DNA from: Rhodococcus ruber
Lineage (GTDB): Bacteria; Actinomycetota; Actinomycetes; Mycobacteriales; Mycobacteriaceae
DNA: 64,000 bases
NCBI RefSeq assembly: GCF_027270735.1
Contig: NZ_JAPWIJ010000007.1
Coordinates: forward strand, 124,001 to 188,000
Reading direction: 5' to 3'
Shown here: piece after piece, positions 29,587-41,500 of the stretch
How the letters are laid out: the number at the start of each line of letters is the position of its first letter
Position numbering within the stretch: position 1 is the stretch's first letter
Made by a program: the position numbers and the translations under genes
The notes under the pieces: generated by a model
What the model saw: only the letters and a program-made list of their open reading frames with translations
Told to the model about the DNA's origin: nothing
The model's database searches: none

Positions 29587-32500
29587 ATGCGTGCAACAAC
29601 AACCGGCGGGTCTCAGACGCCCCCGACCGGCACCGGTTTCGAGAACGGCTTCCCACTGTCGTCCGCCCAGCGGGGAATGTGGTTTGCTCAGCAACTCGCC
29701 CCTGACGTTGCAGTGTGCATCGCCCAGTACGTGGACCTACGGGGCAACCTGGACATAGCAGTCCTGCAGGAAGCGTCGGCTCGGGCCGGACACGAGTTCC
29801 AGTCCGCCTACCTCCGTCTGGCCGAAGTCGACGGAGAGGCCGTTCAGGTTGTCGATCATTCGATCGACCAATCCGTGCACTATCTGGACCTTCGCGGCGA
29901 GGACGATCCGATGTCCTCGGCGCTGCAGTGGATCGACCACAACTATGTGCAGCCGGTCGACATGGAGAACGATCCGCTGGTCGATAGCTGGATCATTCAG
30001 GTCGAGGACGAGCGCAACCTCTGGTACAGCAAGATCCACCACGTAGCACTCGACGGCTACGGTGCCATGACGCTCGTCAACCGCACCGCTGCGCTGTACA
30101 CAGCCGCCGTCGAGCACTCCGAACCCGAGCCCAACAAGGCGGCCGAACTTCGCCGTCTGTACGAGCTCGACCAGGACTATCGGACGTCGACACGCTTCGA
30201 GTCCGACAAGGAATACTGGGTCGCCCGCGCCGCCGACATCCACGACGGCGCAACTCTGTCGAACACGGACGGCCGCACGATCGCCGCCAGCAAGCTGCGC
30301 AGCATCGCTCTGCCCGCGGATGTCGTGACCGCTCTCGAAGGGTCCGATTCCACCAAGGGCGGAACCGCAGCCGCGGTGTTCATCGCCGCGTTCGGCTGCT
30401 ACCTCTCTCGAATGACCGGACGAGACGACGTACTGGTCAATATTCCGGTGTCCGCTCGAACCACGGCGCTGCTCCGCCGATCCGGCGGAATGCTGGTCAA
30501 CGTCGCGCCGATTCCGATGCACGTCCGAGAGGACGCCACCGTCGGTGAACTGGTCCAGCAGGTCCAGCTCGAATTGATGGGCGCTCTTCGGCACCAGCGG
30601 TTCAGCATCGAGGACATCCGGCGCGAACTGGCAGCCACGGGAAGCGACAAACAGCTCACCGGGCCGATGGTCAACATGATGCTGTTCCACCAGCAGATCA
30701 ACCTCGGTTCGATCGTCGGCGAGTTCAACATCGTCACGTCGGGGCCGGTGGAGGACCTTCTGGTCAACGTGTACCAGAGTGGTTCACCAGCAAGAACATT
30801 CGTCGACTTCAGGGCCAACCCGAACCGGTACGACGACGACGATCTCACTGCGCACCACTCGAGTTTCGTGGATATGGCAGAAGCTTTCATCGCGGCCGGA
30901 CCCGATGTCGTTGTCGCCGAGGTACATCCGGACAGTGCCCGCGAAGGCCGACGACGCCGACGCGTCTCCGCTCAGCTCGCCTACTGGACCGATCGACTCT
31001 CCGACTCTCCCGACCTGAGCGGCATCCCGAGCGATCGCGTCCGCCCTTCACGTATCGGCCACGTTCGTGCATCGCACGAGATCACTCTCGGATCCACGTC
31101 CTGGGCAGCAGTCGAAGAACTGGCTGCCGACCGCGGGACAACACCGTTCGTGGTATTCGAATCTGTTCTCGCCGTGCTTCTTTCGCGTCTGGCCAGCACC
31201 GACGACGTCTCGATTGCCGTGCCCGCCGACAGCGGAGAAACCGTCGTTCTGCGGACCAACCCGGACGGACGGCAGTCCTTCGGCGACTTCGTTGCTGCGT
31301 CCAGTCTCGATTTCGATGCTGCTTTCGCACACGGTGACGTGTCGTTCGACGACGTCGTCGACGCCCTGGGTCTGTCCCGGTCCGGCTCGCACAGCCCGTT
31401 GGCTCAGATTGCGCTTCGATTCGGTCCCGCGGCTCTGCCTCACGACGGAATCGATATGGATCTTGTCGTCACCGTCGACGAATCCGATTCGGTGAGTGTC
31501 GTTTTCGATTACGCCACAGAACTGTTCGACGCCGGGAGCATGTCGCAGTTCGGCCGCCGCGTGGTACGAATCCTCGACGCGCTCACGGGTGCACCCGACG
31601 TGTTGATCGGTGATGTGGACATGCTGTCCACGGCCGAGCGTGCTCGACTGGCTCCGGTTCGTGGGCCGCGGTCTGTGGTGGGTGTGGTGTTGCCGGAGTT
31701 GTTGGCTGGTGCTGTGGGTGTTGCTGGTGTCGGTGGTGTTGCGGTGGTGTCGGGTTCGCGGGTGCTTTCGTATGGTGAGTTGGATGCGGCGTCGTCGCGG
31801 TTGGCGCGGATGTTGATGTCGTGTGGTGTGGGTCCGGGGTCGTTCGTGGCGTTGGCGTTGTCGCGGTCGGTGGAGTCTGTGGTGGCGGTGTGGGCGGTGG
31901 CGAAGGCCGGTGGTGCGTTCTTGCCGGTGGATCCGAATTATCCGGTGGATCGGATCGAGCACATGTTGGTCGATTCGGGTGCTGTGGTGGGTGTGACGTT
32001 GGGTGCTCATGTGGGTGCGGTGTCGGGTGTGGGTGGGGTGTCGTGGGTGGTGCTCGATGATCCGGATGTGGTGGCGGATCTGGCGTTTCGGTCGGCTGCT
32101 CCGGTGTTGGATGCCGAGCGTTCGGGTGTGTTGCGTCTCGATGATGCGGCGTATCTGATTTATACGTCGGGGTCCACTGGTGTGCCCAAGGGTGTGGTGG
32201 TCACTCATCGTGGTGTGGGGAACTTGGCTGCTGAGGAGCGGGTTCGGTTCGGTGTGGGTCCGTCGTCTCGGGTGTTGGCGTTTGCGTCGCCGAGTTTCGA
32301 TGCGTCGATTCTCGAGTTCGTGTTGGCGTTCTCGGGTGGGTCGACGATGGTGATTGCTCCGCCGTTGGTGTTCGGTGGGGTGGAGTTGGCGTCGTTGTTG
32401 GCGCAGGAGCGGGTCTCGCATGCGTTCGTGACGCCGGCGGCGTTGGCGTCGGTGGATCCGGTGGGGTTGGAGTCGGTGGAGGTTGTGGTCACCGGTGGTG

Positions 32501-38500: not shown

Positions 38501-41500
38501 CGTTTCGGTCGGCTGCTCCGGTGTTGGATGCCGAGCGTTCGGGTGTGTTGCGTCTCGATGATGCGGCGTATCTGATTTATACGTCGGGGTCCACTGGTGT
38601 GCCCAAGGGTGTGGTGGTCACTCATCGTGGTGTGGGGAACTTGGCTGCTGAGGAGCGGGTTCGGTTCGGTGTGGGTCCGTCGTCTCGGGTGTTGGCGTTT
38701 GCGTCGCCGAGTTTCGATGCGTCGATTCTCGAGTTCGTGTTGGCGTTCTCGGGTGGGTCGACGATGGTGATTGCTCCGCCGTTGGTGTTCGGTGGGGTGG
38801 AGTTGGCGTCGTTGTTGGCGCAGGAGCGGGTCTCGCATGCGTTCGTGACGCCGGCGGCGTTGGCGTCGGTGGATCCGGTGGGGTTGGAGTCGGTGGAGGT
38901 TGTGGTCACCGGTGGTGATGTGTGTGCGCCGGAGTTGGTGGCGCGGTGGGCGCCGGGTCGGCGGATGTTCAATGCGTACGGTCCGACGGAGGCGACGATT
39001 TTCTCGTCGATTTCGTCGGCGTTGGTGGTGGGGGAGTCGGTCGATATCGGTTCTCCGACGATCGGTTTCGCGGAGGTGGTGTTGGATGCGCGGTTGAATC
39101 CGGTGCCGGTGGGTGTGGTGGGTGAGTTGTATCTGGCGGGTCCGGCGTTGGCTCGTGGGTATCACGCGCGGTTGGGTTTGACGGCGGAGCGGTTCGTGGC
39201 CAATCCGTTCGGTGGTGCGGGTTCGCGGATGTATCGCACCGGTGATGTGGTGCGGTGGAATGCTTCGGGTGCGTTGGAGTATGTGGGGCGTAGCGATTTT
39301 CAGGTGAAGGTGCGTGGTTTCCGGATCGAGTTGGGTGAGATCGATTCGGTGTTGGCGGCGGTGTCGGGTGTCGATTTCGTGGTCACTGTCGGGCGTGAGT
39401 CTGCTGCTGGGGCGACGGTGTTGGTGTCGTATGTGTTGCCGGTGGCTGGGACGGTTCTGGATGCGGCTGCGTTGCGGGAGCATGTGGGGTCGGTGTTGCC
39501 GGCGCATATGGTGCCGTCGGCGTTGGTGATGCTCGAGTCGATTCCGTTGACTCCGGCAGGCAAGCTCGACCGAAACGCACTACCCGAACCGGACTGGTCC
39601 GCTCAGGTCACCACGGGCGGCCGCGATGCCGACAACGCGGTCGAGAAGACGTTGGCCGGATTGTTCGCCGAGGTCCTGCGGCTGGACCGCGTCGGCGTCG
39701 ACGATTCGTTCTTCGCGCTCGGCGGCGACAGCATCATGTCCATTCAGTTGGTCTCGCGCGCCAAGGCCGCAGGTCTTGCTCTCTCGCCGCGAGATGTGTT
39801 CGAGCACAAGACTGTTGCTGCACTGGCAGAGGTGGTCGCAGCCGGTGACGGGACTGCTCCATTGGTGCTGGAGGAATTGCCGGGAGGCGGTATCGGAGAC
39901 GTACCGCTGACCCCGATCGTGGCATGGATGCTCGATCGCACGGCAGTGCTCGACAAACACACCCAGACCGCTGTGCTGACGCTTCCGGCGGACATCGAAC
40001 TCGACGTTCTCGAAGCCACTGTCCAGACGGTTCTCGATCACCACGACATGCTCCGCGGTGTACTGCATCGCGGTGAGAACCCTGCGATGGAGGTCCTTCC
40101 CGTCGGATCGGTGGCGGCGCAGTCGGTTGTTCACCGAGTCTCGTCGACGACAGTGCACGGTCCGGAGTTCTCGGAGCAGGCCAAGACGGAAGCGGCGGCA
40201 GCAGTGTCCCGCTTGGCGCCTGATTCCGGCGTCATGATCCAGATGGTGTGGTTCGACGCAGGCACCGAGGGGAGCCGTCTGCTCGTTGTCGCCCATCACC
40301 TGGTGATCGATGGCGTGTCCTGGCGAATTCTCGTTCCGGATCTCGCGTCGGCATGGGCTCAGATCATCGGCGGAAACACTCCGGAGCTGGCTCCGGTCGG
40401 CACCTCGATGCGCCGTTGGTCTCACGGCTTGCGTGAGGTCACCGCAACCCGCGCCGACGAGCTGGAGATCTGGCGATCTGTTGTGGCGCAACCTGATCCG
40501 CTCATCGGATCGCGTGCTCTCGATCGCGAGATCGACGTGTACCGGACCGTGGACAAGATCGAGACGACTCTGTCGACCGACGTCACCGAGGGACTGCTGA
40601 CTGCACTGCCCGACGCCTTCCACGGCAGCGTCAACGATGGTCTTCTCGCCGCTCTCGCCCTCGCCACCGCCGTCTGGCGACGAGGGCGCGGCGTGGTCGT
40701 CGACGACGCTTTCATCTCCCTCGAGGGCCACGGCCGCGAGGACCACGTCGTACCCGGTGCTGACCTCGGCCGCACCATCGGCTGGTTCACCACCATCTAC
40801 CCGCTCAGATTGACCCTCGACGGTATCGATCTCGACGACGCTCTTGCCGGCGGTGCCGATGCAGCGCGCCTGATCAAGTCCGTCAAGGAGCAGTTGCTGG
40901 CCGTTCCGGATCACGGCATCGGCTACGGCATGGTGCGATACCTGGACGAGACGGGTGCCGCTGCTCTTCGCGACTTCCCGGCTCCCCAGGTCAGTTTCAA
41001 TTACCTCGGGCGCTACAGCACCGACATTCCGGACGAGCTTCGCGGGCACGGCTGGTTACCGGTCGACGATTCCGGAGTCGGTGATTCGCAGGACGAGGAT
41101 CTACCCGTCGCCGCTGTGCTGGACATCAACGCCGTCACCACGGCGACACCGACCGGCCCACGATTGGAAGCCTCCTTCGCGTTCCCGACAGGCGTGCTCG
41201 ACGCGGCCGAGGTCGAAGAGCTGGTCGAACTGTGGCGACAGGCGCTCACCGCGCTGACTCTGCTTGCGCAGCGGCCCGGAGCCGGCGGTTTCACTCCGTC
41301 CGATCTCGAGCTGGTTCGGCTCGACCAGAGCTCCATCGACGATCTCGAACGCGTCTATCCGACACTGGACGACATCTGGTCGATGACGCCTCTGCAGGCC
41401 GGTCTGCTGTTCCACGCCGAGCTGTCGGATCAGTCCGTCGATGCCTACATCGTCCAACTCGTGTTGGAACTGCGCGGAGACGTCGACGAAGCTCGCTTCC

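Follow-up and report, generated by a model that had tools for sequence, protein, structure and literature searches.

How do two domains of one enzyme come to be encoded by exactly the same DNA, and what keeps them so? The question is raised by a nonribosomal peptide synthetase (NRPS) gene of Rhodococcus ruber, located in a window of 64 kb (the whole stretch analyzed, positions 124,001–188,000 of contig NZ_JAPWIJ010000007.1). The adenylation (A) domains of its modules 1 and 3, here termed A1 and A3, are encoded by two blocks of the same sequence with a strong excess of G and T on the coding strand. Very probably, the A1/A3 pair is a GRINS-type repeat under recurrent gene conversion. The gene, the two copies and the DNA between them are arranged as follows (T, thiolation domain; C, condensation domain).

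29587..56355, plus strand: seven-module NRPS gene of 8922 amino acids that holds both copies (single open reading frame (ORF); Pfam condensation, AMP-binding, PP-binding and thioesterase domains; seven A-domain core motifs)
31648..33176, plus strand: copy 1, the A domain of module 1 (A1), 1529 bp, defined by its identity to copy 2; G/T-skewed core at about 31648–33114
38065..39593, plus strand: copy 2, the A domain of module 3 (A3), 1529 bp, defined by its identity to copy 1; G/T-skewed core at about 38065–39531
33177..38064, plus strand: inter-block DNA, T1-C2-A2-T2-C3, unskewed; orthologues of 84–95% identity in 12 other genomes of the genus

Pairwise comparison of the blocks gives 1529 identical bases out of 1529, and the identity is extendable by not one base on either side. 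The blocks are the sole exact direct repeat of at least 40 bp in the window. Each starts with a complete codon (688 and 2827 of the ORF). Outside the blocks, 50-nt pieces at the same offset have 29–33 identical bases adjoining the left edge and 6–20 to the right. The left edge lies about 29 codons ahead of the point where the alignment with solved A domains begins, which places it in the C-A linker. The right edge is found seven codons and two bases beyond PLTPAGKLD, which we take to be an A10-like motif. An initial annotation of the window had described exact copies, divergent flanks, these two borders and one whole A domain as the unit, and the comparison bears it out on each of these points. 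Its likening of the block to the exchange unit of NRPS re-engineering is fair as an analogy, but not beyond that. Two full-length copies at 100% identity and no more are present in the R. ruber genome, the next match being 70% over part of the block. A search of a plasmid collection yielded nine records with short matches only (at most 7% of the query).

The initial annotation missed the nucleotide skew of the block. On the coding strand, the GC skew is +0.40 and the TA skew is +0.53, whereas 250-nt windows elsewhere in the gene range from −0.19 to +0.14 and from −0.25 to +0.28, respectively. Third codon positions are nearly all G or T; for example, 72 of 87 Val codons are GTG, and Gly is encoded 44 times by GGT and once by GGC. 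Both copies have the skew in each of the 11 genomes described below in which two copies are resolved (0.35–0.40 for GC, 0.51–0.53 for TA). When these genomes are pooled, the skew sets in within the same 20-codon bin as the identity and stops about 20 codons short of the right identity edge. A G-quadruplex hotspot is not supported: the block has 46 GGG runs compared with 10–20 in four control regions, yet only one G4 motif.

According to two publications (PMC10394414, PMC9899208), GRINS are repeats within one assembly-line gene with identities above 80–90%, GC and TA skews above 0.15–0.25 and G and T on the coding strand. They are linked to gene conversion, are commonest in actinobacteria and are described mainly in polyketide synthases (PKS). 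The thresholds given there are a length of ≥500 bp (about 1 kb), an identity of >80% to a second region in the same cluster (both sources) and mean GC and TA skews of >0.15 (PMC9899208) or >0.25 (PMC10394414). With 1529 bp at 100% identity, the A1/A3 pair exceeds the limits of size and identity, and its skews exceed both versions of the skew limit; here the skew of the whole block was used together with a self-alignment, and not the published 150-nt window script. The link to gene conversion is seen as an association only, in that the pair is homogenized in each of the 11 genomes. The host gene is an NRPS and not an assembly-line PKS. This is not counted against membership because the PKS location is not taken as defining; the abstract of the founding GRINS paper (PNAS, 2021) reportedly extends GRINS to many gene families. 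No other GRINS was found in 56 kb of contig C1 and 17 kb of contig C11 of the same genome, which carry other NRPS genes and were inspected for direct repeats with positive coding-strand skew only.

The genus was searched (37 genomes including that of R. ruber) with the inter-block DNA as query. Apart from the orthologues listed above, the query matches a sister NRPS type at about 70%. The related genomes number 14 in all: 11 with two resolved copies (R. ruber included), two with contigs broken at the repeat and one with an apparent fusion. A1 and A3 are nearly identical within the genome in all ten other genomes that have both on one contig. The longest exact runs are 1525–1562 bp in seven of these and 1448, 1340 and 333 bp in the rest; the shortest belongs to genome G026, whose copies differ at 23 positions over 1530 nt. 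In all 11 genomes, the identity starts on the left within the same codon. Identity between species is 79–95% for the flanks (C1, T1C2, A2, C3 and T3C4) and 92–98% for the block. When the 22 copies are placed in one tree, A1 is always sister to the A3 of its own genome (11/11). Paralogues are closer to each other within a genome than to their orthologues in each of the 11 genomes, as is expected of concerted evolution. Indels have been caught in both states. The block of G033 is 33 nt longer in both copies, unique among the 11 genomes, and this is a new indel that has already spread to both copies. In G014, assembled as one contig, a 9-nt deletion is present in one copy only, along with one substitution inside the block; this indel has not spread to the twin copy.

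The initial annotation had proposed a comparison with sister strains, and the ten near-identical pairs are its outcome. They alter the view of one recent domain swap or duplication that the same annotation had put forward. Such an event would agree with the copies of R. ruber, which are without any difference, but the same pair with the same edges is present in ten of ten other genomes and the differences between species are common to both copies. Near-identity in these genomes and the 11 sister pairs argue against one recent swap, which is accordingly regarded as highly improbable. As the sole cause, a one-off swap is refuted by the within-genome pairs and the tree; an ancestral swap may still have founded the pair. 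Conversion as the class of mechanism stands, the single recent event does not. The A1/A3 pair is under concerted evolution, which is best explained by recurrent gene conversion.

An assembly artefact, in which one copy was written twice, had been named in the initial annotation as a possible refutation. The R. ruber assembly consists of 61 contigs, and the contigs of two relatives end at the block: in both G015 and G010 the inter-block DNA forms a separate contig, which carries exactly 98 nt of the block at either end in G015 and stops within a few bases of the block in G010. These breaks are as expected, since assemblers are stopped by an exact repeat. Independent assemblies nevertheless agree on two copies, including the one-contig G014 with its 9-nt deletion and G026 with its differing positions, and a collapse would not create the skew. 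The doubt about the 61-contig assembly is answered because other genomes, e.g. G014, show two copies. Thus, an artefact is considered extremely improbable.

The initial annotation also credited the event with a shared specificity of modules 1 and 3. A further A domain of the gene is relevant here.

42688..44220 (limits approximate), plus strand: A domain of module 4 (A4); same code type as A1 and A3, unskewed and not homogenized in R. ruber; pairs with A1 as a repeat in the sister NRPS type

The specificity code of A1 and A3 is DALFVGAIFK and that of the unskewed, unconverted A4 is DALFAGAIFK. Conversion is not needed for the shared specificity, because A4 keeps nearly the same code without homogenization, and the codes do not demonstrate that the event altered specificity. 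The codes of A2 (DVWHFSLVDK) and A5 (DFWNIGMVHK) are serine-like and threonine-like, respectively, by the usual assignment of code positions and substrates. Judging from the codes, conversion is probably nearly neutral for the peptide product.

Silent sites of the block change slowly. At fourfold degenerate sites, the p-distance between species is 0.114 in A1 and 0.113 in A3 compared with 0.321–0.393 in seven other regions, i.e. about threefold less. The amino-acid divergence is equal in A1 and A2 (0.038). A 12-rate substitution model on the tree of the flanks was used for comparison of the block with the flanks. The exits from G and T are strongly lowered in the block (T>C 0.22 vs 2.31; G>C 0.08 vs 1.06; G>A 0.01 vs 0.53; T>A 0.02 vs 0.61). 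The rates of G>T (0.26 vs 0.30) and C>T (0.65 vs 0.79) are close to those of the flanks, and C>G is raised about twofold (1.58 vs 0.76). Suppression of silent changes is about tenfold for those away from G/T and only mild for G<->T. A model-free count in eight more distant genomes agrees with the model as regards the exits. Sites with G or T in the block are found as A or C in 3.9% of cases (flanks 33.8%, A2 37.2%, A4 28.6%) and as the other of G and T in 6.6% (flanks 10.5%). Under biased conversion, substitution depends on the direction of the base change, and exits from G/T are indeed suppressed far more than G<->T changes; selection would look similar. Differences between A1 and A3 within a genome involve A or C in 23 of 25 cases (three border sites and the indel excluded), compared with 88 of 152 fixed two-state differences between genomes (Fisher p = 0.0007). 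The excess of A and C among differences that have escaped homogenization fits variants that arise and are then removed.

These rates bear on two further explanations. A strand-specific mutator, e.g. transcription-linked deamination, might write G and T into the block, in agreement with the strong coding-strand skew and the raised C>G rate. It would raise entry without lowering exit, yet the T>C and G>C exits are reduced 10- and 13-fold and there is no rise in C>T. Furthermore, the skew ends at the repeat edge within one transcribed gene. Lowered exits together with an unraised C>T argue against a mutator, which appears very unlikely, and for the removal of A/C mutations. Horizontal exchange of the A block between species, on the other hand, could feign slow evolution and would suit both the higher identity of the block between species and the places where the A-domain tree departs from the flank tree. 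In that case all classes of change should drop alike, but the two classes of the model-free count drop very unequally, and exchange is hardly probable as the cause. As mutator and exchange both fail, what remains is that A/C mutations are removed, whether biased conversion or selection does so.

A trace of recombination between copies is possibly preserved in genome G003.

7993..9512 of locus L160 (G003:C4:285500-305400): apparently fused block of G003; one A block, with the 6.4 kb between the copies missing

No orthologue of the inter-block DNA was found in G003 (best match 67%). Its single block is 94% identical and is flanked on the left by module-1 and on the right by module-3 sequence in one open frame. 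The next A domains in this frame are spaced like A3-A4-A5. The simplest reading of this one draft assembly is recombination between the copies, by which 6.4 kb and two modules were lost. Loss is likelier than an ancestral short form because the sister NRPS type has the longer A1-A2-A3-A4 spacing.

The sister NRPS type was inspected at eight loci, out of more that matched. In all eight, A3 is unskewed and A1 instead has a skewed partner in A4, at a distance of about 11.0 kb (loci including L049, L050 and L052–L056). The A1-A4 identity is 0.922, 0.890, 0.885, 0.767 and 0.755 in five loci. In G031 it is 91% over 1.27 kb, in G004 it is below 0.68, the lower limit applied, and in G028 it is not measurable within the stretch examined. 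The repeat partner of A1 has switched between the two NRPS types (A3 vs A4). An exchange of module 3 and module 4 domains between the types (clade I and clade II) is suggested by the protein tree but is not claimed, as A3 of clade I is about equidistant from A1 and A3 of clade II (0.094 and 0.091, 101 composition-neutral columns). In two sister-type loci the NRPS frame is broken between the A1 and A2 regions, with overlapping frames that end and begin there (L049 of G004 at about 4071–4885 and L055 of G007 at about 4662–4770). L055 additionally contains short direct repeats with spacings of 150 and 317 nt inside its skewed A-domain regions (1901–2549 and 13377–14008).

Skew and identity rise together (Spearman 0.70) over 108 A-domain pairs from 19 genomes, pairs that are not independent of each other. 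Outside the genus, 15 of 17 loci have a repeat of at least 500 bp and at least 80% identity (up to 99.9%) with both skews above 0.15; these loci were chosen from a search of 401 genomes of the family for two strong matches close together, and the sample is biased by this choice. Among 74 named loci found by C-domain similarity, at least 15 contain such a repeat, and 13 of the 15 are skewed, seven of them in this NRPS and three in the sister type. The counts are lower bounds because many of the loci are short stretches. In L126 (Rhodococcus sp. IEGM 1409), a repeat pair of 1.6 kb (8052–9655 and 15903–17505) is 99.3% identical with stronger skews of 0.64 and 0.59. In the R. ruber window itself, the NRPS gene is preceded by genes for an amidohydrolase-family protein and an Lnt-like N-acyltransferase (25149–28917). 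It is followed on the minus strand by a gene for a chorismate-binding enzyme with a glutamine amidotransferase domain (57121–59181).

For the A1/A3 pair as a whole, the favored explanation is recurrent copying between the two domains combined with a correction that favors G and T, to which we assign a probability of roughly 0.6. Homologous recombination between the copies would do the copying, and it would be expected to leave a product like the apparent fusion in G003. Mismatch correction during this recombination would prefer coding-strand G and T. A substrate that modules 1 and 3 (and 4) apparently share is probably the reason why conversion is tolerated.

Several observations weigh against this explanation. 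The recombination is only deduced from the pattern of the copies. In the 12-rate model, T>G is 2.7-fold below the flanks (0.39 vs 1.06), the data give no estimate of the rates from A, and the bootstraps number only 8 and 5. The remaining A/C sites in the block (20 in R. ruber, compared with the same eight genomes) are found as G or T in 9.4% of cases, compared with 31.7% in the flanks. Change is lowered in both directions in the block, for exits from G/T more than for entries, and the conservation of the A/C sites leaves room for a constraint on silent sites in general. G026 alone accounts for 21 of the 25 within-genome differences, some of which are also found in other species. The A-domain tree groups G022 with G030, in disagreement with the flank tree. 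The single block of G003 retains most of the skew (0.34/0.51). Singletons of the type G/T to A/C relative to G<->T are 14:9 in G003 and 20:34 in the 11 paired genomes (p = 0.08, not significant), or 9:7 and 14:29 at third positions (p = 0.14). In a comparison of G003 with G030 alone, the p-value is 0.04. The singletons of G003 are a hint that the suppression of G/T loss is relaxed, no more.

Some of these points suit an alternative in which conversion keeps A1 and A3 alike while the skew is held by selection at silent sites (for codon use, the structure of mRNA or R-loops, or a tendency to recombine). Suppressed loss of G/T is equally expected under selection, the conserved A/C sites are constraint-like, and G003 keeps most of its skew with a single copy. 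However, A2 and A4 belong to the same protein with the same task and lack such a constraint. In the sister NRPS type, a different module pair carries the skew, which is weaker in less similar pairs, and the codons of the block, such as those for Gly, are unlike the rest of the gene. Selection as the force behind the skew is rated as rather unlikely. That biased conversion and not selection holds the skew is given somewhat less than an even chance.

Recurrent copying with G/T-favoring correction can be extended, more tentatively, to GRINS in general. They may be elements that maintain themselves through gene conversion with a strand-specific bias toward keto bases. An A or C that arises on the coding strand of one copy would be repaired back to G or T with the twin as guide. 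The pair would stay identical and skewed, its silent sites would change about three times slower than their neighbors, and another homologous module might become the partner in another lineage, as A3 in one NRPS type and A4 in the sister type.

GRINS, concerted evolution of NRPS and skewed NRPS genes are already known (PMC10394414, PMC9899208, PMC4256081, PMC9205934). With the GRINS described so far, the A1/A3 pair shares the repeat, the double skew, the G/T strand and the link to conversion. It differs in that it is located in an NRPS, its unit is one whole A domain, and it can be traced through 14 genomes with codon-fixed edges in 11. Modules 3 and 6 of the azalomycin F PKS likewise contain two nearly identical GRINS in one assembly line, but these are several domains long and are described from one strain (PMC9899208). 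In the NRPS clusters for CDA, daptomycin and A54145, A and C domains are also closer within a cluster than to their counterparts in related clusters (Medema et al. 2014, PMC4256081). Concerted evolution was deduced there from tree branching and, in the sections accessible, without base-exact identity or skew, unlike the A1/A3 pair. The genes wolG1, wolG2 and dsaG likewise combine nucleotide skew with A-domain recombination in NRPS (Booth et al. 2022, PMC9205934); that case is one of whole-gene duplication followed by a change of specificity, not of an identical pair conserved across species. In the literature searched, from which the founding GRINS paper and most subscription papers were outside coverage, no GRINS with an NRPS A domain as the unit, no measure of suppressed G/T loss and nothing on this locus was found, and the term 'gene conversion' is absent from PMC5550956 and PMC12130866.

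The value of the A1/A3 finding is mechanistic. One NRPS locus in 14 genomes makes the origin and persistence of GRINS countable, with G/T loss suppressed and G/T gain not clearly raised. The founding abstract reportedly describes this origin and persistence as unexplained. If biased conversion holds the skew, a recombination process, and not function, would account for the fact that some assembly-line domains are tied to each other and change slowly. In that case, it would bear on how NRPS evolution is read, on the choice of borders for domain swaps and on the trust placed in short-read assemblies of such clusters.

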